64,000 nt of DNA from Marinobacterium profundum (GTDB taxonomy: Bacteria; Pseudomonadota; Gammaproteobacteria; Pseudomonadales; Balneatricaceae): NCBI RefSeq assembly GCF_001528745.1, contig NZ_BCNS01000091.1:1-64000 (forward strand), read 5' to 3'. Positions 21,196-44,696 of the stretch are shown in pieces. Position numbers and translations under genes: made by a program. The notes below the pieces were generated by a model. The model searched no databases and was not told where the DNA came from. It saw only the letters and a program-made list of their open reading frames with translations. The stretch's first letter is position 1. Each line of letters begins with the position of its first letter.

Positions 21196-21219
21196 TAAAA
21201 GGCGAACCGAACAAACAAC

Positions 21220-21374: not shown

Positions 21375-21397
21375 TCCCTTGCATCATAGGAGCCATC

Positions 21398-22453: not shown

Positions 22454-22461
22454 TAGTGCTT

Positions 22462-22508: not shown

Positions 22509-22631
22509 TAGCCCTTCACCATACAAGGTCATCGAACCGGGTTCCATTTCCTTAGGGTCCCCGGTTCATCTTGCCGTCTGCAATTTAATTGCTAAATCAC
22601 TCCCCCTTGGGCAGACCGATACCCCGCAATC

Positions 22632-23546
22632 ATGCATGATCTCGCCTCAACGATACTGATCTGCGTCGCATTGCTGATTCTAACTGGCTATGCGGCAGTG
22701 CGCTCCGGCTACCTGAGCGCCGAAATACGACAACCGCTGATGCTGTTTATCAATCACATCTCGGTTCCTGCGTTGCTCGTCAACTCGTTAATACAGGATC
22801 GACCTCTAACGCTTCCCGAACCCCGGATGTTATTGGCTTACTTCATCCCGGTGACAACCGTTTTCATGATGCACTGGTGGGCGCTCAAACCTCGCCATCA
22901 AGCCACCAATGATTCAACCAGTCAGCAACGCCGCACCGTACTGGCGTTCGGTAGCAGTTACTCCAACATTATTTTTTTGGGGCTGCCGCTGGCGGTAGCA
23001 ACCTTTGGTGATCAGGTGGCGCTGATGATAATTGTGTTTGGGGTGACTAACAATTTGCTACTGCTGATTTTAGCGGAGCTGACAAGTAACCGACTTAAGC
23101 CCGGCCAGTTGGTACAAACGCTGCGCCAAACGTTGCTGACGCCTGTGGTAATCGCGGCCCTGGTGGGATTTTTAACCCGCCTGCAGCCACTGACACCTCC
23201 AACTGCGCTCGTAGGTACTATCGACTTACTGAGCAAAACAACGCTACCTTTAGCATGTTTCTGCATGGGCGCAACCCTGGCTACCTTCAAGATCCAGGTT
23301 CAGCCGTATCCACTATTGCTGGGGCTCTTTCTCAAAAACCTGTTACTTCCGGCCCTGGTCGCGCTTTGCTGTTATCTGCTAGCGGTCGATCAACAGCATG
23401 CTCGCATCAACGTGTTTCTGGCAGCCATGCCCTGCGGATTTTATATGTATATTCTGGCAAGCCGATTTGAGCAGATGCAACTGCATGCCATCGGCCAGAT
23501 CATGGCCTCCTCATTGCTGTCGCTACTGGTTCTGTCTTGGCTGTAA
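22632..23546 (+). CDS. AEC (auxin efflux carrier) family transporter
   Basis: A 304-residue inner-membrane protein with about ten hydrophobic segments arranged as two halves, as in the AEC/MleP family of carboxylate or malate carriers. Recognisable segments: LLILTGYAAVRSGYL, FINHISVPALLVNSL, FGSSYSNIIFLGLPLAVATFGDQ, LSKTTLPLACFCMGATL and AAMPCGFYMYILASRF. Substrate unknown; with its neighbours it may export or exchange a carboxylate intermediate. It is 178 bp from the pdxA-like gene across a strong hairpin, so it may have its own promoter. Confidence 0.85.
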   Translation: MHDLASTILICVALLILTGYAAVRSGYLSAEIRQPLMLFINHISVPALLVNSLIQDRPLTLPEPRMLLAYFIPVTTVFMMHWWALKPRHQATNDSTSQQRRTVLAFGSSYSNIIFLGLPLAVATFGDQVALMIIVFGVTNNLLLLILAELTSNRLKPGQLVQTLRQTLLTPVVIAALVGFLTRLQPLTPPTALVGTIDLLSKTTLPLACFCMGATLATFKIQVQPYPLLLGLFLKNLLLPALVALCCYLLAVDQQHARINVFLAAMPCGFYMYILASRFEQMQLHAIGQIMASSLLSLLVLSWL

Positions 23547-23974
23547 GCCTTGATGAGACAGCAGCTAATATTCACATGACTACCCACGAGCGACCGAACA
23601 TCGATAAACAGACCAACCTGTAGAGGCCGCGAATAAAGCTGGACGCCTTAGATGACAATCAGGCAACGTCATTATAACTGGAATATAGCCAACAGTTACT
23701 TGGCTCTATTGGGTAAATGTAGCTGCCTGATTATTGGAAATGAGCGCATGACCTCACCCAATAATCGCTAAATCAGTAGTTGAGTAAACACGCCGCAATT
23801 TCCATCCCGAATTTCACCTTGTGCACTGCTCCGCTCTTAGAGACGCTTTTAGCGAGTCGCCAGAAAGTGGGCCTGTAATGGTCAACTAAGACCGGACGGT
23901 ACATTAAGTTCTTCTTCGGCTCTTGCCGGCGGAACACCATCGTTATACTGATGAGGTAAGTGGCTCGCCAAGGC
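23547..23974. other. Intergenic junction with possible transposase scar
   Basis: About 430 bp between the AEC gene and comM. It has a 9-bp inverted pair GATTATTGG/CCAATAATC (23729-23737/23758-23766). On the minus strand, a frame ending at 23773 encodes a tail (FWRLAKSVSKSGAVHKVKFG then MEIAACLLNY) that reminds me of C-terminal ends of DDE transposases, but it is only about 35-70 codons and has no ribosome site. I cannot confirm it without a search. Otherwise nothing is seen. Confidence 0.25.
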
Positions 23975-29851: not shown

Positions 29852-30886
29852 ATGATCATAATGAGGCCGATCCGCGAGAGCGATCTGGATGTGTTATGTG
29901 ACATCGCCAGGGAGTCCGGCCCCGGATTTACCTCACTGCCGGATAACCGCGAACTGCTGCAGGCCAAGATCGCACGTACCCGCCAGACGCTGCAACAGGA
30001 GGCCACCCTGGACGGCAGCCAGGGTTATCTGTTCGTGATGGAGGATCTTGCCAGCGGCCAGGTGATCGGCACCAGCGGCATTGAAACCGCCGTGGGCCTG
30101 AACGAGCCCTGGTATCACTACCGTATCGGCACAGTCGTGCATGCTTCGCGTGAACTCAACGTCTACAACAATTTCCGCACCCTGGATCTGTGCAACGACT
30201 ACACCGGTTGTGCCGAGGTCTGTACGCTGTACCTGAAACCCGACTTTCGCAAGGGCAGCAACGGTAACCTGCTCTCCAAGAGTCGCTTCATGTTCATGGC
30301 AGAATATCCGGAGCGTTTTTCCGAGCGGGTCATCGCCGAGATGCGCGGCTATTCCGATGACAAGGGCCGTTCGCCTTTCTGGGACGGTCTGGGACGGCAC
30401 TTTTTTTCCATGGAATATTCCCAGGCGGATTACCTCACAGGCTCCGGCAACAAGATCTTTATCGCCGAACTCATGCCCAAGCACACCATCTACCTGCATC
30501 TGCTGCCCAAGGATGCCCAACGGGTGATCGGCCAGGTGCATCGCAATACCGAGCCCGCCAAGCGCATGCTGGAAAACGAAGGTTTTCGGTTTGAGGGTTA
30601 TATCGATATCTTCGACGCCGGCCCCACAGTCGCGACCCGGCTCAACGATATCCGCAGCGTGCGAGACAGCCGTTACATCAAGGCCAGAATCAGCGACACG
30701 CCCTGCAGGAGTGACCATCTCTATCTGGTCAGCAATACCCTGCTGGAGGACTTCCGCTGCACCGTTGCGCCCCTTCAGCCCGAAGGCAGCGCGGCCCAGA
30801 TCAGCCACGAGCTGGCCGATGCATTGCGCGTCTCCAACGGTGATCCGCTGCGCATAGTCCCCATCAAAGCGAGACAGCCAGAATGA
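29852..30886 (+). CDS. astA: arginine N-succinyltransferase
   Basis: A 344-residue GNAT-like enzyme making N2-succinylarginine from arginine and succinyl-CoA, the first step of the AST pathway. Diagnostic segments: [60 protein letters not shown], and [20 protein letters not shown]. The ATG at 29852 with AAGGAG before it is chosen over 42 upstream in-frame codons overlapping the previous gene. ATGA overlap with astD. Only one subunit gene is present, unlike the aruF/aruG pair of Pseudomonas. Confidence 0.94.
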
Positions 30887-32355
30887 CCGAACCCGCTTCC
30901 CTGTTTATCAATGGCCAGTGGTGTCAGGGTGACGACGCCGACATGGAATCCTTCAACCCAGGCAACGGCCAGCGCATCTGGCACGGCCGCGCCGCCAGCT
31001 GCGAACAGGTTAATGAAGCCGTACTGGCGGCCCGCGAGGCCTTCGAACACTGGCGCCTGATGACATTTGAGCAGCGCGCCACCCTGGTACGCCGCTTCGT
31101 CAGCCAGCTGGAACAGCATCGCGACCTGCTCACAGATACCATCGGTCAGGAAACCGGCAAGCCGCAATGGGAAGCCGCCACCGAAGTGGCCGCCATGATC
31201 GGCAAGGCCGACATCTCGATTCAGGCGGCACTGGAGCGCAGCGGCGAAAAGCGCCAGCACGGCAACGGTATTACCTCGACGCTGCGGCATCACCCCCATG
31301 GCGTGGTGGCAGTGTTCGGCCCCTACAACTTTCCCGGCCACCTGCCCAACGGACACATCATTCCGGCGCTGCTGGCGGGTAATACCCTGCTGTTCAAGCC
31401 CAGCGAACTGACACCCAGGGTAGCGGAACTCTGCATGCATTTCTGGCAGAAGGCCGACCTGCCAGATGGTGTGCTGAACCTGCTGCAGGGCGGGCGCGGC
31501 ACAGGCCAGGCCCTGGCTGCTCATCCAGGGCTTGATGGCCTTTTCTTTACCGGCAGCGCCGATACCGGCAGCTACCTGCACCAGCAGTTCGCCGGCCATC
31601 CGGAAAAAATTCTGGCGCTGGAGATGGGCGGCAACAATCCACTGATTGTGGCCGATACGCCGAATATGCGGGCTGCAGTGCTGATGACCATTCAGTCGGC
31701 CTATTTGAGCGCGGGCCAGCGCTGTACCTGTGCCCGCAAGCTGCTGGTACCAAGAGGCCGCAGTGGCGATGCCTTTATCGAACAGCTGCGTCAGGCCGTG
31801 CTGGATATTCAGGTGGGACCCTACAATCAGCAGCCACAGCCCTTTATGGGCGCGCTGATCAGCGAGGCGGCCGCACAGCAACTGTTGCAGGCCCAGCACG
31901 AACTGGTGCAACTCGGTGCCAGGGTACTGGTCTCCATGAGTCAGCTGCGCCCGCGCACCGGCCTGCTGTCGCCGGGGCTGATTGATGTCAGCGCCGTACG
32001 GGATCTGCCCGACAAGGAATATTTTGGACCTCTGCTGCAGATCATCCGCTACGACGACTTCGATGAGGCACTGAACCTGGCCAACGCCACGGCCTTCGGC
32101 CTGAGTGCAGGCCTGTTCAGCGGTGACGCCCAGCTGTATCAGCGATTTTTGCAGCGCATCCGCGCAGGCATCGTCAACTGGAACCGCCCGCTTACCGGCG
32201 CCAGCAGCGGTCTGCCCTTTGGGGGCATTGGTCGTAGCGGCAATCACAGGCCCAGCGCCTGGTATGCCGCGGATTATTGCGCCTATCCGGTGGCATCCCA
32301 GGAGGCAGAACAGCTCGATATGCCGGCCACCCTGCCACCAGGTCTAACGCTTTAA
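30883..32355 (+). CDS. astD: succinylglutamate-semialdehyde dehydrogenase
   Basis: A 490-residue aldehyde dehydrogenase oxidising N-succinylglutamate 5-semialdehyde in the AST pathway. AstD hallmarks: [11 protein letters not shown] at the start, [35 protein letters not shown], general-base Glu in [11 protein letters not shown] and nucleophile Cys in [12 protein letters not shown]. Translationally coupled to astA. The pathway's astC, astB and astE are not in this window and must be elsewhere. The 3' side faces the convergent sensor kinase with a 73-bp gap. Confidence 0.94.
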
Positions 32356-32428
32356 GCTTATGATCTTAATTCTTGTCCTTTGGCTCTGGCCTTGAACTTT
32401 GGAGTTTCGACTTTTAACCTTGAATTGC

Positions 32429-33709
32429 TCAGGCCACCGGCAGGCGAATCAGCAGCTCAAGGCCCCCCTGGGGGTGATTGCTCGCTTCGATGCTGCCTCC
32501 CAGCATACGCAGCGCACGGCGGGCAATGCTCAGCCCCAGGCCATAGCCATCGGCATCAACACCGCTACGCTGGCGGAAAAACGGATCAAACAGCTGTTCC
32601 AGCGTCTCGTCCGGCACACCAGGACCATGGTCTCGAATCCGCAGCTCATGCAGGTTGCCAACAGAGGCGTGACTCAGTTCGATCGCCGTCCCCGTCGGCG
32701 TGTGCTTGAGAGCATTATTGAATACATTGCTCAGGGCACGTTCCAGTAACTGGCGGTTACCCCGCGCCCGGCAGCCTTTGGGCACATCAAAGGACAGTTT
32801 GCGGTCAGGCTGCTGAAAGTGGATATCTTCCCTCAATTCGGTCACCAGCTCCTGCACACTGAATGCCTCAGCCCCCGACTCCAGTGCTTCAAGGCGCGAC
32901 AGCGAGAGAATTTCGGTAATCAGGCGATCGATTCGACCACACTCACGATTAAGCCGCTGCAACAGGGGATCACCTTCGCCCAGGCGCTGCTCCAGCAATC
33001 CGGCCGCGGCCTGCAAACGCGCCAGGGGCGCACGCAGCTCGTGGGATACATCCTGCATTAGCCGCTGACTGGCTCCCAGAGTGCGCTCGACATAGTCCGC
33101 CATGGTATCGAACTCCCGCGCCAGCTCACCGATTTCATCGCCCCGGGCGCTCAGTTTCTGATCGCTGCGTACCGCCAGATCACCCTGGGCCAGAGCCCTG
33201 GTATGTAACCGCAGCCGTTTGAGCGGCCGCACCACCAGCCAGGTCAGCACCAGACTGGTGAGCGCCGACACCAGCAATATCAGTACAATTTGCACCGACA
33301 CCAGCAAGCCCAGGAAACGACCGAACTGCTCCCGCTGTGGCCAGGCGCCAACCTGCACGCGGTAGCTGCGCCCGGACTCGGACACCAACTCGAAGGTCAG
33401 CACCGTCTTGGCACCGGGCCCGCGCTTGGGCAGCGAGTTAAATATCGGGTCCTTGCTGCCCAGCTCCACAATGCGCATGCCAGGAGCGCCACGGGATGAC
33501 TTGCGCTGCAGCCGCTCCAGCCCATGATCTTCCTCGTAACGCTCCAGCATGCGCTCGGCCAGGGCGCGAGCGCGGGTTTCCTGCACCTCGGCATCGCGCT
33601 CGTGATGGGACATGCCCCCAACAATCACCGCTGTGGCCAGGATCACCAGCACGCTGCTGAGCCAGATGGCCAGGAAAATCTTCCAGTACAGACTGCGATA
33701 CCACTTCAT
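32429..33709 (-). CDS. cpxA: CpxA-like envelope-stress sensor histidine kinase
   Basis: A 426-residue membrane kinase. First membrane helix about residues 9-31, periplasmic sensor of about 100 residues, second helix about 132-158, HAMP linker RPLKRLRLHTRALAQGDL, phospho-acceptor His223 in DVSHELRAPLARLQ, then N box (NVFNNALKHT), G1 (DHGPGVP), F (FDPFFR) and G2 (GYGLGLS). The RAPLxRLQ H-box and partner regulator suit CpxA. It overlaps cpxR by 4 bp. The gene is called CpxA because the partner operon carries a CpxR box and a CpxP-type gene lies nearby. Confidence 0.85.
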   Translation of the reverse strand: MKWYRSLYWKIFLAIWLSSVLVILATAVIVGGMSHHERDAEVQETRARALAERMLERYEEDHGLERLQRKSSRGAPGMRIVELGSKDPIFNSLPKRGPGAKTVLTFELVSESGRSYRVQVGAWPQREQFGRFLGLLVSVQIVLILLVSALTSLVLTWLVVRPLKRLRLHTRALAQGDLAVRSDQKLSARGDEIGELAREFDTMADYVERTLGASQRLMQDVSHELRAPLARLQAAAGLLEQRLGEGDPLLQRLNRECGRIDRLITEILSLSRLEALESGAEAFSVQELVTELREDIHFQQPDRKLSFDVPKGCRARGNRQLLERALSNVFNNALKHTPTGTAIELSHASVGNLHELRIRDHGPGVPDETLEQLFDPFFRQRSGVDADGYGLGLSIARRALRMLGGSIEASNHPQGGLELLIRLPVA

Positions 33710-34410
33710 CCTGCCTCCAGTACCAGCAGGTAACCTTCGCCGCGCAATGTTTTAATCAATTCCAGGGAATCTCCGCCGCGCTGCAGCTTTTGCCGCAACC
33801 GACTCACATGTACATCAATAGCACGATCATAGGCCGTGAGCGGACGGTGCAGCACGCGTTCGGTCAGCTCTGCCTTGGACATTACCCGGCCGGCGTTATG
33901 CAGCAGATAGGCCAGCACGTTGAACTCAGCAGAGGTCAGCTCTACCACCTCGCCCGCCACCCGCACTTCCCGCTGGCCCGGATCAAGGCGGATCTCGTGC
34001 AGCTCGATAGGCCGTTGCGGAAATTCCGTCTGCTGCGCCGGCACTTCACTGCGCCGCCGAATGGCCCGGATACGCGCCAGCAGTTCGCGCGGATTACAGG
34101 GTTTGCCCAGATAATCATCAGCGCCCATCTCGAGCCCCAGAATACGATCGATTTCCTCACCCCGGCCCGTCAGCATGATCACCGGCAGCTGCACCCGCGG
34201 GCGCATCTGCTGCAGCAGCTCAAGACCACTCTGGCCCGGCATCATCACGTCCAGCACCATCAGGCTATAAGGATGGTTACCTTCCAGCCGCACAAGTGCT
34301 TCACGCGCGTTATGGGCGTAATCAATTTCGTAACCTTCGTGACGCAGATAGTCGCCCAGCAACTCACACAGCTCGACGTCGTCATCCACCAGCAGCAGTC
34401 GTTCTTTCAT
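33706..34410 (-). CDS. cpxR: CpxR-like response regulator (OmpR/PhoB family)
   Basis: A 234-residue regulator: receiver with acidic DDD at 9-11, phospho-acceptor Asp54 (MVLDVMMPGQSG), Lys in YLGKPCNPREL, and an OmpR-type winged helix (ELTSAEFNVLAYLLHNAGRVMSKAELTERVLHRPLTAYDRAIDVHVSRLRQKL). CpxR binds GTAAA-N5-GTAAA; exactly this sequence is 62 bp upstream of its own start, implying autoregulation. First gene of the cpxRA operon. Confidence 0.9.
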   Translation of the reverse strand: MKERLLLVDDDVELCELLGDYLRHEGYEIDYAHNAREALVRLEGNHPYSLMVLDVMMPGQSGLELLQQMRPRVQLPVIMLTGRGEEIDRILGLEMGADDYLGKPCNPRELLARIRAIRRRSEVPAQQTEFPQRPIELHEIRLDPGQREVRVAGEVVELTSAEFNVLAYLLHNAGRVMSKAELTERVLHRPLTAYDRAIDVHVSRLRQKLQRGGDSLELIKTLRGEGYLLVLEAG

Positions 34411-34469
34411 TCATTCAGGCCCCCGTTATTCAGGCTCCATGATAACGCCGTCACCTGTTACACACTGAG

Positions 34470-34489
34470 CCTTTACCAAACTTTACAGT
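34470..34489 (-). promoter_or_regulatory. CpxR box upstream of cpxR; left copy of 20-bp direct repeat
   Basis: On the minus strand this reads GTAAA-GTTTG-GTAAA (TTTACCAAACTTTAC at 34472-34486), the CpxR consensus with exact spacing. The 20 bases 34470-34489 recur identically and in the same orientation at 39124-39143 upstream of cpxP. See findings. Confidence 0.88.
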
Positions 34490-34501
34490 CGATCTGCCAG
34501 A

Positions 34502-35368
34502 TCAGGCGTCAGGCACCGCCGTATCCATCAGATAGACATTATCAATACTGTCGCGGGGCTCCCTGCTCACCTCGGAGGGCGGATAGCCAAAGCGGCTCTT
34601 GAATGCCTTGCTGAAGTGGAAGGCATCACTAAAGCCGAGTTTGAAAGCGGCCTGGGAAACATTCAGCGAGCTTCTGTTGAGCAGCGCATGGGCCATATCG
34701 AGCTTGAGATTCATGAAGTACTCCTTAGGCGTCTGGCCGGTGTATTGCTGGAATACCTTGCGAAACTGCTGTTCGCTAGCGCCGTACAGGCGGGCCATGT
34801 CCTTCACCGCCCAGCGCTCATCGGTATGACCATGCATCTGGCTGATCACCGTTTGGATGCGCCGCAAAGATGCAGGCTCGGCATGGTGGTTCGACAGTGC
34901 GACCCACTGATAGAGCACTTTGGTAAAAATGGCGGCGGCATAGGCCTGATAGTTAGTGTCACCCACTCGAACGCAGCTGACCAGCTCGCTGAACTCGCGA
35001 CTGTGGCCAGTCGGATCCCGCAGCAGTACCGGCGTATTGAGCGGCAAAGTGACAGGCCCATGCAGCACAAACTCAACCCAGTACAGCTCCCACAGCAGAC
35101 CCTCGCAGGCATAGCTCAGAATGTCACGGGCTTCGAGCAACAGTACGCAAGCCCCCTTGGCGTGAATTTCCCGGCCCGACCTGAGGCGGATAACGCCATG
35201 CCCCTGGCGGGTAAAAACACATACATGGGCGCTGGGCAGCAGCGGCAGTTTCTTGTCCCTGGGCCAGAGCACCTGATAGCTCTCATCGGCATAGATATCC
35301 CACACGGACCTCAGGGTGATACCAAAGGCCGTGGCGGGGCTTTCCAGCAGTACAGGGGTGTTTTTCAT
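34502..35368 (-). CDS. AraC-family transcriptional regulator
   Basis: A 288-residue regulator with a cupin-type N-terminal sensor (HVCVFTRQGHGVIRLRSGREIHAKGACVLLLEARDI) and a C-terminal double helix-turn-helix (WAVKDMARLYGASEQQFRKVFQQYTGQTPKEYFMNLKLDMAHALL, then VSQAAFKLGFSDAFHFSKAFKSRFGYPPSE). It is the last gene of the symporter-sulfatase-regulator block and probably controls it, responding to a sulfated compound or its product. Its stop is only 12 bp from the left copy of the CpxR-box repeat. Confidence 0.88.
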   Translation of the reverse strand: MKNTPVLLESPATAFGITLRSVWDIYADESYQVLWPRDKKLPLLPSAHVCVFTRQGHGVIRLRSGREIHAKGACVLLLEARDILSYACEGLLWELYWVEFVLHGPVTLPLNTPVLLRDPTGHSREFSELVSCVRVGDTNYQAYAAAIFTKVLYQWVALSNHHAEPASLRRIQTVISQMHGHTDERWAVKDMARLYGASEQQFRKVFQQYTGQTPKEYFMNLKLDMAHALLNRSSLNVSQAAFKLGFSDAFHFSKAFKSRFGYPPSEVSREPRDSIDNVYLMDTAVPDA

Positions 35369-35519
35369 GCGTCACGCATTCGTGGCAGGGGGCTTTGGAT
35401 ATTAGGCGCTGTGCCAAGGGCGGTCAAAACAGCCGATACCAGGCACTGTCTCGCTCCCGAAAAAGGGCTGGCGAGGTTGCCAGCCCTGCGTTGTCGTGCT
35501 TACCCGATGAGATGGCGCC

Positions 35520-37115
35520 TCAGAGCTGTGGCTTCAGCATCTGGATATCCTCCAGCGACTCATCCATGAAATGCTCCATGTTATGCAGCCGGAAAGAGGC
35601 GAAATAACCGCTCCAGCGCTTGTCCGCGCGCATCACGGACCCGGCATGCCTGACCATGCGAGCACGAATAGCCTCCAGCGCCGGGTCATGGATGGCATTT
35701 ACCGGCTCTACCGCGCCCAGGTCATACAGCTCTTCGCAACCCGTAGTGGTGCTGTAACCATAGAACCAGGCCGTATCACCGATGCGTGCCTGGCAGCCAA
35801 ACCCGAAATTGGTGCCCACATGAATGCCCAGCTGATAGACCTGCTCAAGTGCGGGCCTTGTTCCGGTGGCCATAATATCCAGCAGGCTCGCGCCTTCCAT
35901 CTGCAGCGGCGTTTCCAGACCAGCAGCCTGCAGTATGGTCGGCCCCAGATCCACCAGGGATACAGGTGTTGCTATATCACCCGGCGTCGCCATGGCTCCG
36001 CCCGCCGGCTTGACCAGCATGGGCACACGGAAAATGTCGGGATGGAAGTAGGAGCCCTTGTCCGCCAGCCCCAGCCGGCCGTTCATCTCGCCATGGTCTG
36101 CGGTGAACAGAATCAGGCTGTCATCCCACAGACCCTCAGCCTTCAGGTACGCAAACAGCTTGCCGATGGCATAGTCCACCAGCTCCACCTGTAGCAAATG
36201 ACAGGCGATATAGTCCTTCACCAGTTCCTCGTCATACAGGCCCCAGTAGCGGTGATACAACCGAAATATTGGGTTCTGGCTACCGCGACCCTCGTCCTGC
36301 AGCTCATGGAAGGATGCTGGCACCTGCACCACGGACCTCAGATATTCGTAGCGTTCCTCGTAGCCCTGCGGAATGGAATAGGGCTGGTGCGGGTCGAAAA
36401 TATCGATCTGCGAAAACACCGGTTTTCCGGGAGCCTGCAATTCGGACGCCTTGAACTGGCGAATCGCCAGATCCGCCAGAAATACCGAATAGTGCGCATC
36501 CCGAGGGAAAGCCTCACCGTTACGTTGCTGGATCCAGCCACCGAAGGACGTGCTGGCGGTGACTCTGTCCGCCAGAGTGCCTCTGAGTTCACGGCTGTAT
36601 ACCGGCGCTGTCACGCCCATGGCACCAATGTACTCAACGTAACGGTCATCATCCATCACCGGCGGGCCCCAGCGATCCCAGGCATGCACGTTTTCGCCAA
36701 AGGTATCGACAAACTTGGGCGTACCTACATGGCACTTGCCCACATGCTTGAGGTTATAGCCCTGCTGTTTCAGATAATCCTGAAAAATCGGATCTTCGAG
36801 TTCCAGATCAGACTTCATGCCACTGGGCGTGCGCTCGCCATTAGACAAATAGGGCGGATGCATGCCCGTGCACAGGGCCGCCCGGGCCGGCCCGCACAAT
36901 GGGCTGGGAGTAAAGGCATTATTGAAGCGGACACCCTGATCCAGCAGGCTGAGAATGTTCGGCGTTTCTATGTGCTGCGACAGCGGCCGCGAGGGCAGAT
37001 AACAGTCGGGCGAGATCATATCCACGGTGATAAGGATAATATTGGGCCTGTGTTGCTGCTCTTTCACTTCGAACGCGCCCTGGCGGGTTTTGGGGTGCAG
37101 AAATTTTACAGTCAT
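35520..37115 (-). CDS. type I sulfatase (formylglycine-dependent)
   Basis: A 531-residue alkaline-phosphatase-superfamily sulfatase. The modified Cys is Cys74 in LCGPARAALCTG (CxPxR, the formylglycine signature), and metal-site segments are ILITVDMISPD (Asp32) and FTADHGEMNGRLG. No signal peptide is seen, so it should act in the cytoplasm on an imported sulfate ester, consistent with the Na+ symporter immediately upstream. The substrate is unknown: a small sulfated organic or sugar. A formylglycine-generating enzyme or anSME is not in the window. Starts 18 bp after the symporter stop with AGGAG. Confidence 0.88.
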   Translation of the reverse strand: MTVKFLHPKTRQGAFEVKEQQHRPNIILITVDMISPDCYLPSRPLSQHIETPNILSLLDQGVRFNNAFTPSPLCGPARAALCTGMHPPYLSNGERTPSGMKSDLELEDPIFQDYLKQQGYNLKHVGKCHVGTPKFVDTFGENVHAWDRWGPPVMDDDRYVEYIGAMGVTAPVYSRELRGTLADRVTASTSFGGWIQQRNGEAFPRDAHYSVFLADLAIRQFKASELQAPGKPVFSQIDIFDPHQPYSIPQGYEERYEYLRSVVQVPASFHELQDEGRGSQNPIFRLYHRYWGLYDEELVKDYIACHLLQVELVDYAIGKLFAYLKAEGLWDDSLILFTADHGEMNGRLGLADKGSYFHPDIFRVPMLVKPAGGAMATPGDIATPVSLVDLGPTILQAAGLETPLQMEGASLLDIMATGTRPALEQVYQLGIHVGTNFGFGCQARIGDTAWFYGYSTTTGCEELYDLGAVEPVNAIHDPALEAIRARMVRHAGSVMRADKRWSGYFASFRLHNMEHFMDESLEDIQMLKPQL

Positions 37116-37133
37116 GGCTTGGGCTCCTGATGG

Positions 37134-38930
37134 TTACTTGTAGGCGCGAGTGTCGGCAACAGGACTCGCTTTCTGCGCAGTAACGGAGCTATTTGACCTG
37201 AGCCAGGCCAGTATTTTCAGCAGGGCGTAAATGGCCGTAACCCCAATGACCATGGTCGCAAAGACTTTCAGTACAGAGCCATCCGTACTCAGCAGACCCA
37301 GACCGGAGAACATGGCGTAGAGCCCGATCAACATGATGACAATGATCCAGCAGGCATGCCTGGCATACTTCCAGTGTGTGATGTCCACTTCCTGGGTATG
37401 CACCTGGTTATAGGGCTGAGCCAGAGGCTTGAGGTAACGCACCAGTAGCATGATGCCGAACATCAGCGCGAAGTTGACGCCCACCAGGTGCAGCCAGTTC
37501 AGCTTGATAAAGCCCAGATCATCCTTGAGCACAAAGTGAGTGATATAGAAGAAAATCATGCCAAAGGGCAGGGCGATATAGCCGGCCAGGGCAGGCGTTC
37601 TTTTCGACAGAATACCCATCATCACGACCGCCAGAATCGGCACATTGATCACCGCCATAATGGTTCTCATCAGGGTATAGAGGCCATCGGCTGTGGCCAC
37701 AAAGGGCGCGATCAGAATGCACACGACTATAGTTGCCAAGCCAAACACGCGGCCGACCCGCACGGTCTGGGCGTTGGAGGCCGTCTTGTTGATGTACTGC
37801 TTGTAAATATCCAGACTTGCCAGGGTCGACAGACTGTTGACGCCACTGTTAAACGAACTCAGAACCGCACCAAAGAGCACAGCGCCAAAGAAGCCGCTCA
37901 GCCAGCTGGGCAGAACTTCTCGCACCAGTACCGGATACGCCATATCCTGCGCCAGTATGACCTTGCCGTTGGCGAGCACTTCCTTGACGGGAATATTGAG
38001 CATCCCTCTCTGGTGCATGTGCCAGGCAATAATCCCCGGCAAGACCAGCATCGCCACGCCGAACACCTTCATTGCCGCGGCCGCCAGTACGCCTTTCTGC
38101 CCCTCGGCCAGGTTTTTTGCCCCCAGGGTGCGCTGAATAATCGCCTGGTTGGTGCACCAGTAGAACAGGTTGATCAGAAGGATACCGCTGAACAGCGTAT
38201 GCCAGGGAATTGCAGCCTCGGCGCCTATACCGGCGGCTTGCATGCGCTCAGGCGATTCGCTGATCAGAATCTGAAAGCCCGCTGCCATACTGCCATCCCC
38301 AAGGTGCATCAGCGCCAGAATCGGCACCAGGAAGCCGCCTAGCAGTAGCCCCACGCCATTCACAGTGTCGGACACCGCCACCGCCTTGAGGCCCCCGAAT
38401 ACCGCATAGATGCCGCCAACAACCCCCAGGGTCACCACCATAATCCAGGTGGTAACCGTATCGGATGTGCCGAACAGCGTACTCAGATCAAACAGCTTGC
38501 TCAGCGTAATGGAGCCTGCGTAGAGCACGAAAGGCAGGAAGCCAATGACGATGGCATAAAGAAAGATGCTGGATGCCACCAGACGCATGCGCTTGCCAAA
38601 GCGGTCTTCAAGGAATTGGGGCACAGTGGTAATGCCGCCTTTGAGGAAGCGCGGCAGAAAAATCAGCGCAAAGGCGATCATCGCCACCGCCGCCACCGTT
38701 TCCCAAGCCATCACGCTGGCACCCTTGGCAAAGGCGTTGCCATTTAGGCCAGTAAGCTGTTCGGCGGAAATATTGGTCAGGAACAGGGACCCTGCGATCA
38801 CATACCAGGGCAGGCTTCGGCCTGCGAGGAAATAGCCGGTTTCGTGGCTGAGGTCTTCGTCCCGGGTCTTGTAGTAGGAAATAACGGCTACTAGCAGGGT
38901 AAATCCGAGGAAGGAGATAATAGCAAACAT
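37134..38930 (-). CDS. SSS-family sodium/solute symporter (SGLT-like)
   Basis: A 598-residue membrane protein with about 14 hydrophobic helices of the solute:sodium symporter family. Signatures: GYFLAGRSLPWYVIAGSLFLTNISAEQLTGLNGNAF, GGLKAVAVSDTVNGVGLLLGG, NLFYWCTNQAIIQRTLGAKNLAEGQKG and FGAVLSSFNSGVNSLSTLASLDIYKQYI. The NQAIIQRxLGAKxxxEGQKG stretch is typical of the SGLT branch that transports sugars or polyols. It is the first gene of the leftward block with the sulfatase and the AraC regulator and likely imports the sulfatase substrate. Confidence 0.9.
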   Translation of the reverse strand: MFAIISFLGFTLLVAVISYYKTRDEDLSHETGYFLAGRSLPWYVIAGSLFLTNISAEQLTGLNGNAFAKGASVMAWETVAAVAMIAFALIFLPRFLKGGITTVPQFLEDRFGKRMRLVASSIFLYAIVIGFLPFVLYAGSITLSKLFDLSTLFGTSDTVTTWIMVVTLGVVGGIYAVFGGLKAVAVSDTVNGVGLLLGGFLVPILALMHLGDGSMAAGFQILISESPERMQAAGIGAEAAIPWHTLFSGILLINLFYWCTNQAIIQRTLGAKNLAEGQKGVLAAAAMKVFGVAMLVLPGIIAWHMHQRGMLNIPVKEVLANGKVILAQDMAYPVLVREVLPSWLSGFFGAVLFGAVLSSFNSGVNSLSTLASLDIYKQYINKTASNAQTVRVGRVFGLATIVVCILIAPFVATADGLYTLMRTIMAVINVPILAVVMMGILSKRTPALAGYIALPFGMIFFYITHFVLKDDLGFIKLNWLHLVGVNFALMFGIMLLVRYLKPLAQPYNQVHTQEVDITHWKYARHACWIIVIMLIGLYAMFSGLGLLSTDGSVLKVFATMVIGVTAIYALLKILAWLRSNSSVTAQKASPVADTRAYK

Positions 38931-39224
38931 GCTTGCCTCCAGAACTGAGTTCTTATCGTTGTTATGTTCTGCCGCCGATCCGGTGATCGCACGACTAGAG
39001 TGCCATGATTACAGACCTGCCCGGGTGGCGTGAATGTAATAAGAGCACCGATGCATGTACAAAACGAAACCTTCAGAATCTCCTGCTACTCAGCCGTAAG
39101 CGCCCGGCGTCAGCCAAAACCCACCTTTACCAAACTTTACAGTGTCGTAACCCAAGTTTGCAGGCCAATACCCGATACTGGACTCATCAAAACGCGTCAT
39201 ATCAAACACAGCAGGAGAGACACC
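38931..39224. other. Divergent region between the symporter and cpxP
   Basis: About 290 bp. Apart from the CpxR box at 39124-39143 no other operator is recognisable. The promoter of the leftward sulfatase block and that of cpxP must both lie here. Confidence 0.4.
39124..39143 (+). promoter_or_regulatory. CpxR box upstream of cpxP; right copy of 20-bp direct repeat
   Basis: TTTACCAAACTTTAC (39126-39140) is the complement of GTAAA-N5-GTAAA and lies about 85-100 bp before the cpxP start. The 20-bp sequence is identical to the copy upstream of cpxR. Confidence 0.85.
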
Positions 39225-39704
39225 ATGCGCAAGCCCATGATGATAGTTCTGACCACCCTGGCTCTGGCCGGCACCGCAAGCGGACTGGCCTTGGCCCACG
39301 GCAAGGGCGGCGACAATGACGAGCGGCAGCAGCGCCACCAGGAGAAGCGCCTGGAACACATGAGTGAAAAACTCGGACTGAGCGACGAGCAGCGCGCCCA
39401 GATGAAAGAGCTGATGGCCGCACCTGCCGACCGCAAGGCAGACCGGGACGAGAAACGTGACCTGCAGCGTCAGATCCGCGAACTGGATACGGCGGCAGCC
39501 GACTACAATCAGCGTCTCGATGGCCTGATCGAACAGGCACAGCAGCAGCTCGGCGAGCAGATTCGTGAGCGCCAGGCCAAACACCAGGCCATGCAGGAAA
39601 TACTCACTGATGAGCAGGAAAAGAAACTCGCTGAAATGACCAATAAGCGTATGGACAAGATGGAGCACCATGGGCGCCACGGCGGTGGTCGCGACAAGAG
39701 CTGA
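39225..39704 (+). CDS. cpxP: CpxP/Spy-family periplasmic stress protein
   Basis: A 159-residue periplasmic protein with a signal peptide ending at ALA-HGK (24/25), two LTxxQ-type motifs (LSDEQRAQM and LTDEQEKKL), highly charged helical content and a His/Gly-rich tail that could bind metal. CpxP inhibits CpxA and acts as a chaperone or adaptor for misfolded proteins. The ATG at 39225 with AGGAGAG is chosen over 65 upstream in-frame codons. In many relatives cpxP lies directly beside cpxRA; here it is 4.8 kb away. Confidence 0.87.
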   Translation: MRKPMMIVLTTLALAGTASGLALAHGKGGDNDERQQRHQEKRLEHMSEKLGLSDEQRAQMKELMAAPADRKADRDEKRDLQRQIRELDTAAADYNQRLDGLIEQAQQQLGEQIRERQAKHQAMQEILTDEQEKKLAEMTNKRMDKMEHHGRHGGGRDKS

Positions 39705-39730
39705 GAAGCGCCCTATCAACATTCCTTTGC

Positions 39731-39757
39731 GGCCCCGCCGGGGCCGGCTTTTACTTT
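39731..39757 (+). terminator. intrinsic terminator after cpxP
   Basis: GGCCCC (39731-39736) and GGGGCC (39740-39745) with a GCC loop, then GGCTTTTACTTTTT. Likely rho-independent terminator 27 nt after cpxP. Confidence 0.75.
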
Positions 39758-39826
39758 TTAAGACCCTCGCGAGGAGCGGGCTGAAACCCTGTTCACCCCT
39801 CGCATCAGGACGACCGGGATCCTAAT

Positions 39827-39949
39827 ATGTTTGCATCTTTGCTGAAAAAGCTGCATGTTTTGCTTCGAGGCAGTACGCTGCCACAACAGCGACCTGCAGC
39901 AGAACCCTGCACTTCGCCAGGAACCGACCGCTGGCAACAGGCCGCCTGA
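39827..39949 (+). CDS. possible 40-residue small protein
   Basis: A short open frame beginning MFASLLKKLHVLLRG, preceded by GGGATCC 4-8 nt before the ATG. The first 15 residues would form a cationic amphipathic helix; the rest is Gln/Pro/Ala-rich. No homologue is recognised and the frame could be chance. It lies between the cpxP terminator and the next secreted-protein gene. Confidence 0.25.
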   Translation: MFASLLKKLHVLLRGSTLPQQRPAAEPCTSPGTDRWQQAA

Positions 39950-39995
39950 ACCTGACCATAGTGTCTAGAAGAACACGATTAGAATCTGCAACGCC

Positions 39996-40352
39996 ATGAA
40001 CAGAGTGATGAAAAGATACCTGACTCCGGCACTGCTGCTTATGAGCCTCGCGCTCAGCTCCCTTGCACAGGCCAATACTTTCGTTTGCGACCCGCAGGAT
40101 CTGCAGGGTCACTACAGTCGTGATCCGGCCTATTCCGATCATGGAGCCTTGCTGCGCATGCAGTATCTGGCACCGACACAGGCATCAGGCGACCTGGCGG
40201 TAAGCGACTGGACCACAAAGGAAAGACTGCAGTCCAGTCCCGATCCTGAGTCTAGCCTGCCCCAGTCCAGCACCGTCTGCCCACCCGAGCTTGAGTCACC
40301 GCAGAATCATAGCCCGCAGCGACTACAGGCCCCCAGGCGCGTCTGGCTTTAA
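39996..40352 (+). CDS. small secreted protein of unknown function
   Basis: A 118-residue protein with a convincing signal peptide (MKRYLTPALLLMSLALSSLAQA-NTF; cleavage after residue 26 if starting at 39996). The mature part has two Cys (FVCDPQDL and TVCPPEL) and a Pro/Ser/Gln-rich C-terminus. An alternative ATG is four codons inside (40008). No family is recognised and no strong ribosome site is visible, so expression is not certain. It is convergent with the beta-galactosidase gene. Confidence 0.5.
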   Translation: MNRVMKRYLTPALLLMSLALSSLAQANTFVCDPQDLQGHYSRDPAYSDHGALLRMQYLAPTQASGDLAVSDWTTKERLQSSPDPESSLPQSSTVCPPELESPQNHSPQRLQAPRRVWL

Positions 40353-40372
40353 CCCTCTATTCTAAATAGGGG
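40353..40372. terminator. short hairpin between convergent genes
   Basis: CCC-T-CTATT (40353-40361) pairs with AATAGGGG (40365-40372) with one bulged T and a CTA loop. Weak bidirectional terminator candidate. Confidence 0.35.
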
Positions 40373-40384
40373 CAAGATCGGCAT

Positions 40385-42286
40385 TCAGAGCAAGGGCTGC
40401 CAGTGCACGCCCGCCGGCGCCAGAGTGATCCCATCAAAGGTCACCGGCTCTGCGCCATAGTTGAACAGGAAACGATGCTGGTCGGTATCACGCCGACGCA
40501 GCCCCTGCGGCAACCGCATCACGGCAATACCCTGCGCCACACAGATTGACTCCAGTATGCGTACCAGCGCCGCCTGATCAGCCCAACCGGCCAGATACTG
40601 ACGCTGTGCCGTACCCACTCGCGCCGCCTTGCCACAGACCGTGCGCTCCAGCACCGGATCATCACCGTCCAGTGTCTCGACCCAATGCTCGAACGAACCG
40701 CCCTGCTGCAGCGCACGACCTGCGCCTGGGCGCAATGACTCCACATAGGCCGGCCGCGTATTCAGCCCCGGCAGTACCGAGCCCGAAGTACGCAGCGCAA
40801 AGTCGATCGTTTTGGCACCGGTACGGGGCCCGGCCAGCACAGCGCCAGGACAGGCTTCGATCGCCCGCTCAAGGCGCTCGCCTATTGTCATCAGACCGGG
40901 TAGCAGCACCAGAGCGTAGGCCGCAAGATCGTCACAATCGGGGGGCAGAATATCCACCGACAGACCCAGCGCACGCAGCGCCCGATACTGCTCAAACACC
41001 AGTCTGAAATAATCGAAGGAAGCGCCCTGGGGCTGGATTTTCCAGCTCCAGGCCGATTCGTAGTCAAACACCAGCGCCACCGGCGCGCAGGCAGTGCCAA
41101 CATCCGGCAGCATGTCGATCTCGCTGGCTACAACGCGGGCTTCCTCAAGCCCTGGGGCATCGACGCTGTCGGGCCTCAAGAGCCCAGCGTGCATCTGTTC
41201 CTGGGCAAAAGGCGCCTGGCGCCAGCGGAAATAACACACCATCTCGGCGCCATGGGCAAAGGCTTCCCAACTCCACAGCCGCACCATGCCAGGCAGTGGT
41301 GCCGGATTATAGGGGGCCCAGTTTACCGGCCCCGGCTGCTGCTCCATGACCCACCAGCGCCCCTTGCCGACGCTGCGATACAGATCATGGTGAAACGCCT
41401 GAAAATCCGGGTCACCCTGGCGCGAAAACCTCAGCTTCCAGCCATCACCGTCATCGGAACGGTCTTCCAGAAAGCCCAGCGGATAGCTGTCCCAGCTGGC
41501 GATATCCAGATCCGCACCCACCTGGTAATGATCAAAATCGGTGATGCGTCCCATGTAGTTGTGAATCAGCGGCACTTCGGTATGGCGACGCAGAATCTCG
41601 GCCTGAATACGGTTGAAGGCCACCACCTGATCTGAGCTGAAACGCTGAAAATCCAGCCAGTGCACCGGGTTTGCTTCGGTCACCGTCAGGTTGGGCAGAT
41701 CGATCTGATCGAAGCGCTCATAATCCATGGACCAGAATACATTGCCCCAGGCACGGTTGAGGGCTTCGATACTGCCATAGCGATCGGCCAGCCAGGCGCG
41801 AAATCCCGCCTGTGCCGCAGCGCTGTAGGACAGAGTTGTGTCGTGGCAACCGTATTCGTTGTCGGTCTGCCAGGCCACCACAGCCGGGTGGCCGCCGTAG
41901 CGCAGCGCCATCAGTTCGGTAATGCGCGCGCTTTCATGGCGATAGCCCACATGGCTAAAGCAGTAATGCCGGCGGGAGCCAAACTTGCGCTCCTGCCCCT
42001 GGGCATCCCGCGCCAGCATGTCGGGCCACTTATCCAGCATCCAGCGCGGTGGCGTGGCGGTAGGCGTTCCCATGATGATCTTAAGCCCGGCCTGACCCAG
42101 CACCTCAACGGCAGTATCCAGCCAGCGCCAGTCGAGTTCACCCGGGCGGGGCTCAAGCCGGCTCCAGCCAAACTCACCTATGCGCACCCAGCTCAGGCCC
42201 GCCTCGACCATGCGTTCGGCATCCCGGGCCCAGATATCCTCAGGCCAGTGTTCAGGGTAATAACAGGTGCCCAGGGAGCGCTTCAT
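40385..42286 (-). CDS. beta-galactosidase, GH42 family
   Basis: A 633-residue GH42 enzyme: N-terminal GTCYYPEHWPEDIWARDAERMVEAGLSWVRIGEFGWSRLEP, acid/base Glu in WQTDNEYGCHD and nucleophile Glu in VMEQQPGPVNW, then a trimerisation-type domain and small C-terminal beta domain. No signal peptide, so it cleaves imported galactosides in the cytoplasm. The ATG at 42286 (MKRSLGTCYYPEHW, GGAG before it) is the family start; the 42 upstream in-frame codons overlap the lactonase gene. Last gene of the leftward galactoside operon. Confidence 0.92.
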   Translation of the reverse strand: MKRSLGTCYYPEHWPEDIWARDAERMVEAGLSWVRIGEFGWSRLEPRPGELDWRWLDTAVEVLGQAGLKIIMGTPTATPPRWMLDKWPDMLARDAQGQERKFGSRRHYCFSHVGYRHESARITELMALRYGGHPAVVAWQTDNEYGCHDTTLSYSAAAQAGFRAWLADRYGSIEALNRAWGNVFWSMDYERFDQIDLPNLTVTEANPVHWLDFQRFSSDQVVAFNRIQAEILRRHTEVPLIHNYMGRITDFDHYQVGADLDIASWDSYPLGFLEDRSDDGDGWKLRFSRQGDPDFQAFHHDLYRSVGKGRWWVMEQQPGPVNWAPYNPAPLPGMVRLWSWEAFAHGAEMVCYFRWRQAPFAQEQMHAGLLRPDSVDAPGLEEARVVASEIDMLPDVGTACAPVALVFDYESAWSWKIQPQGASFDYFRLVFEQYRALRALGLSVDILPPDCDDLAAYALVLLPGLMTIGERLERAIEACPGAVLAGPRTGAKTIDFALRTSGSVLPGLNTRPAYVESLRPGAGRALQQGGSFEHWVETLDGDDPVLERTVCGKAARVGTAQRQYLAGWADQAALVRILESICVAQGIAVMRLPQGLRRRDTDQHRFLFNYGAEPVTFDGITLAPAGVHWQPLL

Positions 42287-42290
42287 GGTG

Positions 42291-43151
42291 TTACTCCAGT
42301 ATGACGGGGTATTCGGCCAGGCCCCGGGTGTCGGTATCAATAAACAATGTCTGACCGGCAGGCTCGGCGGCAATCTGCGCCCCAGACAGGCCCTGGGTCG
42401 CCGAGGTGACATAGAGCCGCTTCAGGTCTGACCCGGCGAAAGCCGGGCAGGTGACATGCTGCGTGGGCGTCGCAATCGCCTGAAGAAACTCACCTGTCGG
42501 GGAGTACTGGGCAACACGCGCAGCGCCCCATTGGGCAATCCACAGATTACCGGCGGCATCACAGACGGCACCGTCGGGATCCAGGTTCTCTGGGCGCAGA
42601 TCCAGCAGCATCTGCCGCTCGCCCACCGGCCAGCCATGCCGCGGTTCCAGTGGCTGACGCCAGATAATCTGCTCCACCGTATCTGTGTAATAGGCACAGC
42701 TCTTGTCCGGCGCGAAGCAGATAGCATTGGTGATCGAAACAGCCTCGACCAGCAAGCGCAGTTCGCCACGGTAGTAGCGGTAGATAGCACCGGCGCCGCG
42801 CTCGCCCTGCTTGCCCATAGTGCCTATCCAGAAACCACCGCACGGATCCGCACGGCCATCGTTGGAGCGCGTCACTCTATTGTCGGCTTCCAGTGCCACC
42901 AGCGGCGTCTGTGCGCCAGTCACCAGATCAAAGCGCAGCAGCGCCGTTTCACTGGCGATCAGCAGCGTATCGCGATCCACCCAGCCGGCCGCCGACACAT
43001 ACTCGGCAAAATGCCACTGCTGCAACTCTTCACCGTCGCGGCAATAGAGCGTCTTGCCGGTAATATCGAACCAGAACAGCTGCCCGCGCAGTGGATGCCA
43101 CAGAGGCCCTTCACCCAGGCCGCACGGCGTCGCATCGTACACCTGCATCAT
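42291..43151 (-). CDS. SMP-30/gluconolactonase family sugar lactonase
   Basis: A 287-residue six-bladed propeller of the SMP-30/regucalcin family. Metal-site segments: GLGEGPLWHP (Glu), NDGRADPCGGFWIGTMG (Asn-Asp), ICFAPDKSCAYYTDT and NLDPDGAVCDAAGNLWIAQWG (Asp). In this operon it should hydrolyse D-galactono-1,4-lactone to D-galactonate after galactose dehydrogenase. The start is one of two adjacent ATGs (43151 or 43148), overlapping the aldolase stop. Confidence 0.88.
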   Translation of the reverse strand: MMQVYDATPCGLGEGPLWHPLRGQLFWFDITGKTLYCRDGEELQQWHFAEYVSAAGWVDRDTLLIASETALLRFDLVTGAQTPLVALEADNRVTRSNDGRADPCGGFWIGTMGKQGERGAGAIYRYYRGELRLLVEAVSITNAICFAPDKSCAYYTDTVEQIIWRQPLEPRHGWPVGERQMLLDLRPENLDPDGAVCDAAGNLWIAQWGAARVAQYSPTGEFLQAIATPTQHVTCPAFAGSDLKRLYVTSATQGLSGAQIAAEPAGQTLFIDTDTRGLAEYPVILE

Positions 43152-43759
43152 GATGCGATGGCGCTGTCGTAGGCTTCGACCATTTCCAGCGCCAGCGCCC
43201 GTACGTCGGCGACACTGCGCCCGGGCTTGTAGAGCGCCGAACCTATACCAAAGCCCTGGGCGCCGGCGGCGATCCACTGGGCGAAGTTTTCGCTACTGGC
43301 GCCGCCAACGGCATACACCGGAATTGCCGCTGGCAAGACCGCACGCATTGCCGCCACACCGGACGGGCCAATGATCGAGGCCGGGAAGAACTTCAGGCCA
43401 TCGGCACCAGCGTCCAGAGCGGCGAAACACTCGCTAGGCGTAAAGACGCCAGGATAAGACAGCATGCCCCTATCCTTGGTGGCGCGGATAACCTCCAGAT
43501 TACAGTTCGGAGAAATGATCATTTGGGCGCCGGTCTGGGCCACCGCATCAACATCATCACAGCTCAGTACGGTGCCGGCTCCAAATATCGCCTGACCTTC
43601 AAAAGCTCGTATCATGCGGGATATGCTGTCCAGCGGCTGCGGCGAGTTCAGCGGCACTTCGATCTTGGTAATACCCGCCTCGATCAAGACGCCGGCAATG
43701 GCTTCGGCTTCACTGGGCTGAATACCGCGTAATATCGCAATCAGTTCGCGTTCTTGCAT
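43148..43759 (-). CDS. dgoA: 2-dehydro-3-deoxy-6-phosphogalactonate aldolase
   Basis: A 203-residue class I KDPG/KDPGal aldolase: Schiff-base Lys123 in GLKFFPAS, Glu34 in KIEVPLNS and Arg11 in AILRGI. KDPGal rather than KDPG aldolase is inferred from VPLNSP (not VTLRT) and from the adjacent dgoK. Cleaves KDPGal to pyruvate and glyceraldehyde 3-phosphate. One base separates it from dgoK. Confidence 0.92.
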   Translation of the reverse strand: MQERELIAILRGIQPSEAEAIAGVLIEAGITKIEVPLNSPQPLDSISRMIRAFEGQAIFGAGTVLSCDDVDAVAQTGAQMIISPNCNLEVIRATKDRGMLSYPGVFTPSECFAALDAGADGLKFFPASIIGPSGVAAMRAVLPAAIPVYAVGGASSENFAQWIAAGAQGFGIGSALYKPGRSVADVRALALEMVEAYDSAIAS

Positions 43760-43760
43760 C

Positions 43761-44696
43761 TTAATCTCCGGTCATCTGCTGATAGGCGGCGTGCAATCCC
43801 TTGAGAGTCAGTGCCTCGCCATCGTGAATGTCGCTTTGTGCGCCCAGCTGTTGCAGCCCCTGGGAGTAGTGCAGTCCCAGCTGCGTGGCGCCAATAATGG
43901 CCACTGGCTGGCCATCCCAGTAAGCTCTGGCCGCAGCCAGTTCAAGACCGATAACATAGCCGGACAGCCGTGCGCGGGCGGTCTGCGGTGCAAGATCCGC
44001 CAGCAACGCCTCGGCGCGCAGCGAAAACAGTCGCCCGGAAACATCCGCCGGATTCTGCAGTGCCGTTGCAATCGCACCGGCAAAGGCGGCGTCATCCCAA
44101 CCCTGTGCAGCCACGGAGTGGCGCAACACCGACTGAGTCGCCAGCAGTGCATAGAGCTCGCCGGTCATAAAAGTCTGGAACGCGGTGAGTTGCCCTTCAT
44201 GTACTCGTACCCACTTGCTGTGGGTCCCTGGCAGGCAAACGACCCCTTCAAAGCCGGGATGAGCAGCCAGCAGGCCGGCAACCTGGGTTTCTTCGCCGCG
44301 CATAACATCGGCGGGCGTCTGCTGCTTGAGCCCGGGGCACAGATAGACCGCGATGCGGCTATCGGCCACCGCCACGCTCATTAGCTCTCCGGCCGGAGCG
44401 CAGGGCACGGCCCTGTAGGCCGCTTCCACCCAGCCCTGGCGGGCACCTACCATGCCACAGGCAACCACCGGGGTAGTGCGGCCGGGGTTCAACCAGGGAC
44501 TAATTGCGTCCAGCAGCGCAGCTTCGAACTGGTGTGGTGCCAGGCTGCCCATCCCCTTGTCACTGCTGGTGCTAGCCAGGGTTATGCCGTCGTCTGTCAT
44601 GGCCCAGGCACGCATCCGGCTGGTGCCCCAGTCAACGGCAATCCAGTCGGCACAGCGGTCTGTGCTTGTGCTCGTGCTTTTGTCGGTGCTGCTCAT
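43761..44696 (-). CDS. dgoK: 2-dehydro-3-deoxygalactonokinase
   Basis: A 311-residue DgoK-family kinase: AVDWGTSRMRAWAM near the N-terminus (phosphate loop), ACGMVGARQGWVEAAY, DVMRGEETQVAGLLA, LPGTHSKWVRVHEGQLTAFQTFMTGELYALL and IIGATQLGLHYSQGLQQLG at the C-terminus. Phosphorylates 2-keto-3-deoxygalactonate. ATGA overlap with the upstream SDR gene. Confidence 0.93.
   Translation of the reverse strand: MSSTDKSTSTSTDRCADWIAVDWGTSRMRAWAMTDDGITLASTSSDKGMGSLAPHQFEAALLDAISPWLNPGRTTPVVACGMVGARQGWVEAAYRAVPCAPAGELMSVAVADSRIAVYLCPGLKQQTPADVMRGEETQVAGLLAAHPGFEGVVCLPGTHSKWVRVHEGQLTAFQTFMTGELYALLATQSVLRHSVAAQGWDDAAFAGAIATALQNPADVSGRLFSLRAEALLADLAPQTARARLSGYVIGLELAAARAYWDGQPVAIIGATQLGLHYSQGLQQLGAQSDIHDGEALTLKGLHAAYQQMTGD

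Follow-up and report, generated by a model that had tools for sequence, protein, structure and literature searches.

A yidKJL-type operon between two copies of a putative CpxR operator in Marinobacterium profundum, probably an old insertion into the cpxR-cpxP control region

Introduction

How did a three-gene block come to lie between the divergent promoters of cpxR and cpxP, with the same operator-like sequence at either end? The question is raised by a stretch of 64,000 nucleotides from Marinobacterium profundum (contig NZ_BCNS01000091.1 of assembly GCF_001528745.1, positions 1 to 64,000; hereafter the window). In the parts of PMC12802237 consulted, cpxR and cpxP are described as commonly divergent with GTAAA-N5-GTAAA between them, and this pattern is given as the CpxR motif there and in the consulted parts of PMC9600279. 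In order to trace the history of the locus, the window's own genome (G000) was compared with six further genomes of the same genus (G001-G006) and with the wider family. Results indicate that a yidKJL-type operon was probably inserted long ago at the cpxR-cpxP site, with the operator doubled, and was then most likely inherited vertically and lost from one relative, G003.

The duplicated operator and the enclosed genes

Two same-strand copies of CCTTTACCAAACTTTACAGT occupy 34470-34489 and 39124-39143, which confirms the coordinates and the shared orientation given by the initial annotation for 20 identical bases upstream of cpxR and cpxP. The repeat measures exactly 20 bp, since the bases adjoining the copies differ at both ends (left g/a, right c/g). 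Exact GTAAA-N5-GTAAA occurs twice in the window, each time within one of these copies; with up to one mismatch there are four occurrences, whereas shuffled sequence gave 0.98 on average and never more than 3. Across the 5.6-Mb G000 genome, CCTTTACCNAACTTTACAGT with up to three mismatches matched this pair only, while the reversed-pattern control had no match in G000 and at most one in each of the other six genus genomes. Furthermore, no other copy of CCTTTACCAAACTTTACAGT with up to three mismatches was found elsewhere in G000. The motif expected of a CpxR operator, GTAAA-N4..8-GTAAA upstream of cpxR or cpxP, is present. Compared within a genome, the two copies agree at 20/20 positions in G000, 19/20 in G001 and 17/20 in G002, and beyond the 20 bp at 3-5/20 bases on either side (all comparisons of boxes with neighbouring 20-mers are ungapped).

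The approximately 4.65 kb between the copies contain three co-directional genes on the minus strand, encoding an AraC-family regulator, a sulfatase and a sodium:solute symporter. Homologues of YidK, YidJ and YidL of E. coli K-12 are all represented, the YidJ match being only 28%, which makes the block a yidKJL-type operon. The open reading frame (ORF) of the AraC regulator extends, stop included, to 34502, leaving the 12 bp (34490-34501) to the left copy that had been noted initially. By eye, the sulfatase has no obvious signal peptide, and C-G-P-A-R occupies the place expected of the sulfatase motif. The block would likely serve to import a sulfated or related solute through the symporter and to cleave it in the cytoplasm. 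According to searches for a close sulfatase and symporter, the block is present in three of the seven genus genomes (G000, G001 and G002). Neither a symporter match at E <= 1e-40 nor a close sulfatase was found in G003 and G006, and G006 has one sulfatase-family match at 29%. A search with the AraC protein of a contig collection from which near relatives were possibly left out yielded one distant locus, in Anaerobium acetethylicum, at 30% identity.

The ancestral site in block-free relatives

In order to establish the state of the site without the block, 76 family loci were scanned; 13 without a CpxR orthologue were dropped, leaving 63 genomes with the window as the 64th. An iterated profile search, with 5e-5 as its weakest E, detected a CpxP-like frame opposite in strand to cpxR in all 63, and 57 have a single TTTAC-N5-TTTAC between divergent cpxR and cpxP, in agreement with the earlier supposition that relatives carry cpxRA and cpxP over one control region. 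In three of the 57 (G020, G783 and G794) another box lies beyond cpxP, at a distance of 3.8 to 6.4 kb. Two boxes plus the block were found in two of the 63 loci (G001 and G002), and two boxes without it in four (G026, G012, G845 and G846), all belonging to genus g7. Loci without a box are under-sampled in this count because selection used a good cpxR match or an exact box; four genomes with one box in a short cpxR stretch (G008, G015, G023 and G035) and the fifth g7 genome (G844) stand outside it. Exact TTTACCNAACTTTAC was present in 72 of 116 family genomes, and only G000, G001 and G002 have two on one contig within 5 kb.

The alignment with block-free relatives proposed by the initial annotation gave the expected single box, both in 53 further family loci and in G003, G004, G005 and G006, where the site is uninterrupted and comprised of the cpxR flank, one box and the cpxP flank. 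Read by eye, the order of elements in the single-box genus relatives is cpxR -10, box, second element and cpxP -10, the second element of the close relatives being GTAACCCAAGTTTGC. In G000, G001 and G002 the elements on the cpxR side are a -10 and one box, those on the cpxP side a box, the second element and a -10, so only the element common to both promoters is doubled. The extent of the suggested duplication is accordingly confined to the 20-bp box, with the second element on the cpxP side only. When the outer flanks are joined across the block, G001 matches the empty G003 site at 51/60, 20/20 and 59/60 positions, and G000 at 53/60, 19/20 and 58/60 (ungapped).

Away from cpx, a second element of the type ACTTGGGT or AGTAGGGT precedes the box, by eye, at four of six fetched exact-box loci (L093:1898, L095:1667, L097:1830 and L099:1716, but not L096 and L098), which raises the possibility that the family uses the double element as a general Cpx promoter module.

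Two-box loci in genus g7

The initial annotation had held that relatives with two boxes and no block would count against its reading, and the four g7 genomes are of this kind, with box-to-box distances of 275, 277, 319 and 869 bp. They lend substance to a two-step origin, in which a tandem duplication of the operator like that of g7 came first and the operon later entered between the copies. On phylogenetic grounds, however, their state is not ancestral to that of the window. The CpxR+CpxA tree had 50 rows, comprising the window and 49 of the 63 loci (short search, supports from the Shimodaira-Hasegawa-like approximate likelihood-ratio test only). In it, g7 grouped with the single-box G021, G033, G811, G813 and G815 at 100, and the window's genus formed one group at 99. 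A grouping of g7 with the window's genus was rejected (p 0.0005), and with it a common origin of the two-box state, which requires four changes on this tree; the tree thus indicates separate duplication events. Furthermore, two boxes without the block were found in none of the seven genus genomes, and the window's cpxR-side copy is the 20-bp box only, whereas the g7 copy has the layout of a cpxP promoter. A two-step origin is a possible but doubtful account of the window.

In these four g7 genomes the boxes enclose approximately 205-250 bp that follow a cpxP-type promoter copy and end in a terminator-like hairpin and T run (L038:11287-11537, L039:11259-11465, L091:4083-4292 and L092:720-925, all on the minus strand). 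ACCCTAC and TCAGTGCT are invariant within this stretch in the four genomes, and it is a candidate CpxR-driven small RNA. Inspection by eye revealed no ORF common to the G026 and G012 copies, and Rfam gave four matches on the g7 loci, all far below gathering scores. A DNA search of the 116 family genomes with the G012 stretch found G012 and G845, missed G026 and G846, and gave two weak matches of 22-26 bp. In G846 (L091), about 600 extra bp resembling a miniature inverted-repeat transposable element, including GCAGCCCCGCTACTTGC and its reverse complement, lie between the terminator of the small RNA-like stretch and the cpxP-side box.

Age, constraint and inheritance

To place the insertion in time, synonymous divergence (dS) was compared between block and flanks. 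Values for G000 and G001 were 0.32-0.40 in the block versus 0.27-0.46 in the flanks, and for G000 and G002 0.58-1.10 versus 0.73-1.32, dS near 1 being close to saturation. The block has diverged to a degree similar to its flanks, and the insertion is old, not recent. Perfect identity of the copies in the window is no sign of youth because they agree at 19/20 positions in G001 and 17/20 in G002; these differences (1/20 and 3/20), together with the overlap of block and flank dS, rule out a fresh target-site duplication.

Conservation around the boxes bears on their function. In comparisons with G002, the cpxR-side box retains 19 and 20 of its 20 bases, while the adjoining 20 bases retain 7 towards the block and 9-10 towards cpxR. 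The cpxP-side box retains 17/20, with 9-11 on the block side and 18 on the side of the cpxP promoter. Two separately working operators would show this pattern. With the cpxR-side copy kept amid changed bases and the cpxP-side copy kept along with its promoter, both are most likely working CpxR sites.

A genus tree was built from 11 genes (nine flank genes, rpoB and gyrB; 18,240 columns). G000 grouped with G001 at 100/100 and G003 fell beside them at 100/100, with G002 and G006 outside; a clade of G000, G001 and G002 without G003 was rejected on these columns (approximately unbiased test, p 2.3e-8). In the tree of cpxA, cpxR and cpxP, too, G003 joined G000 and G001 at 100/100 and stood apart from G002. 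G003 thus falls within the clade that carries the block, and loss of the block with retention of one box is its most likely history. At the cpxR-side site G003 matches G000 and G001 at 51-53/60 positions; G006 matches at only 31-32/60, so import into G003 from a G006-like donor is unlikely. On the simplest reading the loss was most likely clean, by way of recombination between the two boxes, and a single box is what such recombination predicts. Alternatively, the G003 block may have been replaced from a block-free conspecific.

Several observations weigh against this history. Symporter dS is 0.58 for G000-G002 and 0.44 for G001-G002, below every flank gene, while the AraC regulator and the sulfatase lie above cpxA, cpxR and ald in the G002 comparisons. 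G006 falls inside G002 at 79/80, and a clade of G000-G003 was not rejected (p 0.098). G005 was the single outgroup of the 11-gene tree, the base composition of G000 and G005 was flagged, and the tested clades were chosen after earlier trees were known. The right-hand neighbour of the cpxP-side box is kept as well as the box itself (18-20/20), so this box alone does not stand out; G000 and G001 offer no contrast at the cpxR-side box, where they agree at 20/20 of the adjoining bases on the block side. Finally, no donor emerged: a sulfatase at E <= 1e-60 was absent from 389 other genomes of the order and 368 of the class sampled, lists that did not include G001 or G002 either.

Some of these points, together with the patchy distribution of the block, would suit a history in which G003 (and G006) never had it and homologous recombination in the flanks carried it from one to the other of the G002 and G000/G001 lineages. 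Because symporter dS lies outside the flank range, below all five flank genes (0.57-1.20) for G001-G002, such transfer was judged slightly more probable, and vertical descent after an old insertion slightly less so, than before that value was considered. In the same comparison, however, dS of the AraC regulator and the sulfatase (0.89 and 0.90) exceeds that of cpxA, cpxR and ald (0.57-0.64), and the grouping of G003 by its cpx genes also argues against transfer, which we consider distinctly unlikely. The block was probably inherited vertically.

Mechanism and remaining alternatives

Identical direct repeats bound the block in the window, as would a 20-bp target-site duplication left by a transposon or integrative element. 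However, the block genes encode an AraC regulator, a sulfatase and a symporter; no transposase or integrase was seen among them (overlapping ORFs on the opposite strand were not scanned), no inverted repeat between the block ends is visible by eye, and neither a transposase with terminal inverted repeats nor the site-specific recombinase of an integrative island with att repeats was found. The 20-bp repeat is, moreover, already present once at the empty sites and is operator-like, and 20 bp exceeds the usual length of a target-site duplication. A mobile element of this kind is very improbable. CpxR boxes are short and might have arisen separately at the two promoters, but convergence is scarcely credible given 17-20/20 identity that includes positions outside both GTAAA and the lack of any other copy within three mismatches in G000.

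The architecture described initially is confirmed, and the insertion with operator duplication proposed with it is supported by the empty sites and the distribution of the block, with the corrections that it is old, that the copies are 20/20 identical only in G000 and that G003 likely lost the block. The ancestor would have had divergent cpxR and cpxP with one CpxR box between them, and an operon of the yidK-yidJ-yidL type would have entered this control region in the common ancestor of G000, G001, G002 and G003. With the 20-bp element needed by both promoters on each side of the operon, cpxR would have retained an activator site beside its own promoter, and cpxP would have kept both its site and a second element of its own. 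The block would then have been passed on with the chromosome until G003 lost it, leaving one box. Within this scheme the repeats, the single box of relatives, the distribution of the block, the comparable divergence of block and flank genes and the position of G003 in the tree are observed, and we infer CpxR binding, the mechanism of gain and the route of loss.

Features of the locus

Coordinates of the features are collected in Table 1. Gene types and synteny fit a CpxRA-CpxP system, but the NCBIfam scores of CpxR, CpxA and CpxP all lie below the curated cut-offs and the assignment is tentative; for the LTXXQ protein the best match was Spy and the second CpxP, both far below cut-off.

Table 1. 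Genes and putative regulatory elements of the cpx locus (window coordinates)
Feature	Position	Strand	Evidence
cpxA-like sensor histidine kinase	32429..33709	-	HAMP/HisKA/HATPase; best NCBIfam matches are CpxA models, below cut-off
cpxR-like OmpR-family response regulator	33706..34410	-	Best NCBIfam match CpxR NF008199, 228 bits vs cut-off 341
Likely cpxR -10, TATCAT	34439..34444	-	Called by eye; identical in 6/7 genus genomes, one change in G006
cpxR-side operator copy	34470..34489	-	ACTGTAAAGTTTGGTAAAGG on the - strand; 19-20/20 bases kept across G000, G001, G002
AraC-family regulator, YidL type	34502..35368	-	HTH_18; 40% identity over 270 amino acids to E. coli YidL
Sulfatase-family hydrolase, YidJ type, with C-G-P-A-R stretch	35520..37115	-	PF00884; 28% over 419 amino acids to E. 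coli YidJ
Sodium:solute symporter (SSF), YidK type	37134..38930	-	NF007790 above cut-off; 44% over 543 amino acids to E. coli YidK
Candidate symporter promoter, TTGTAC, 17 bp, TTACAT	39034..39062	-	Stretch well kept in G000, G001, G002; hexamers by eye
cpxP-side operator copy	39124..39143	+	17-20/20 bases kept across the three block genomes
Second conserved element GTAACCCAAGTTTGC, cpxP side only	39147..39161	+	Invariant in G000, G001, G002, G003, G006
Likely cpxP -10, GATACT	39174..39179	+	ATACTG at this position in 13/21 aligned genomes, by eye
cpxP/spy-type periplasmic protein	39225..39704	+	PF07813 LTXXQ

A few bases lie between the cpxR-side box and the expected -35 position downstream of it, a usual location for activators of CpxR's family. 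ACCCAA stands at the position of the second element in 17 of 21 aligned genomes (counted by eye), and this element may be a second, degenerate CpxR box that overlaps the -35.

A simple scan gave 4 terminator-like sites versus 4.7 in shuffles and 1 promoter-like site (35427-35399, immediately before the AraC gene) versus 3.4; with counts not above shuffles, the scan has little power. In the gap between the AraC gene and cpxR (34411-34501) this low-powered scan gave no terminator, so read-through from the block operon into cpxRA would be possible. The candidate symporter promoter was absent from the output of the consensus promoter scan. Control of the symporter by CpxR from the cpxP-side box would be possible by orientation, but about 60 bp separate this box from the candidate -35 downstream of it. 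Spacing between the symporter promoter stretch and this box is not kept (indels in the alignment), and we therefore do not claim CpxR control of the block.

Rfam gave no match in window positions 30000-44000 up to E 1. Directly after cpxP lies a terminator-like hairpin (39730-39746, plus strand; the number of such sites is not above chance), and the cpxP 3' end could presumably yield a CpxQ-like small RNA by analogy. Adjoining cpxP, positions 39996-40352 (plus strand) encode a small, secreted-looking protein with no Pfam or NCBIfam match at E <= 0.001, which diverges fast (80%, 76%, 45% and 35% in G001, G003, G006 and G002). Positions ~5000-23900 form a variable region near the cpx locus, with flanks on either side that match all six genus relatives; its ORFs of at least 200 codons have no match at E <= 1e-40 in the relatives' fetched flanks, or matches at 34-39% (G001 and G003).

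Comparison with known systems

If the proposed history holds, the locus is a clear natural case of a gene block entering a bidirectional stress promoter with neither side broken, the common element being doubled while each promoter keeps its own other elements. A duplicated operator would also offer a route to clean loss, and past insertions would be hidden wherever only one empty relative is compared. More generally, the shared CpxR operator might act as a recombination seam, at which cassettes are gained with an operator copy on each side and lost by recombination between operators. This broader idea is rather unlikely; were it true, loss would restore the original single-box switch, and the first step would have been taken at least two times in the family, once with an operon and once with a candidate CpxR-driven small RNA.

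Among the titles and starts of abstracts listed by literature searches, no report of an operon between duplicated CpxR boxes was found, and no mention of a duplicated operator at the Pseudomonas cpx locus was found in the consulted parts of PMC12802237. According to the same parts, extra genes are associated with the cpx locus in Pseudomonas, in one genus as here, while the arrangement itself differs, with cpxS and cpxR on opposite sides of cpxP. In the E. coli-type cpx region, as in the window, cpxR and cpxP diverge with GTAAA-N5-GTAAA between them (PMC12802237, consulted parts); the window, unlike that region, has 4.65 kb and three genes in between and a box for each promoter. The same three gene types are also neighbours in the E. 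coli yidK-yidJ/yidL cluster (44%, 28% and 40% identity), where yidL is divergent from yidK-yidJ and the cluster is flanked by yidI and glvG, whereas in the window the genes lie at the cpx locus and are co-directional, with the regulator as the last of the three. The component pieces are of known kinds, and their combination, with its separate parallel in g7, is moderately interesting.

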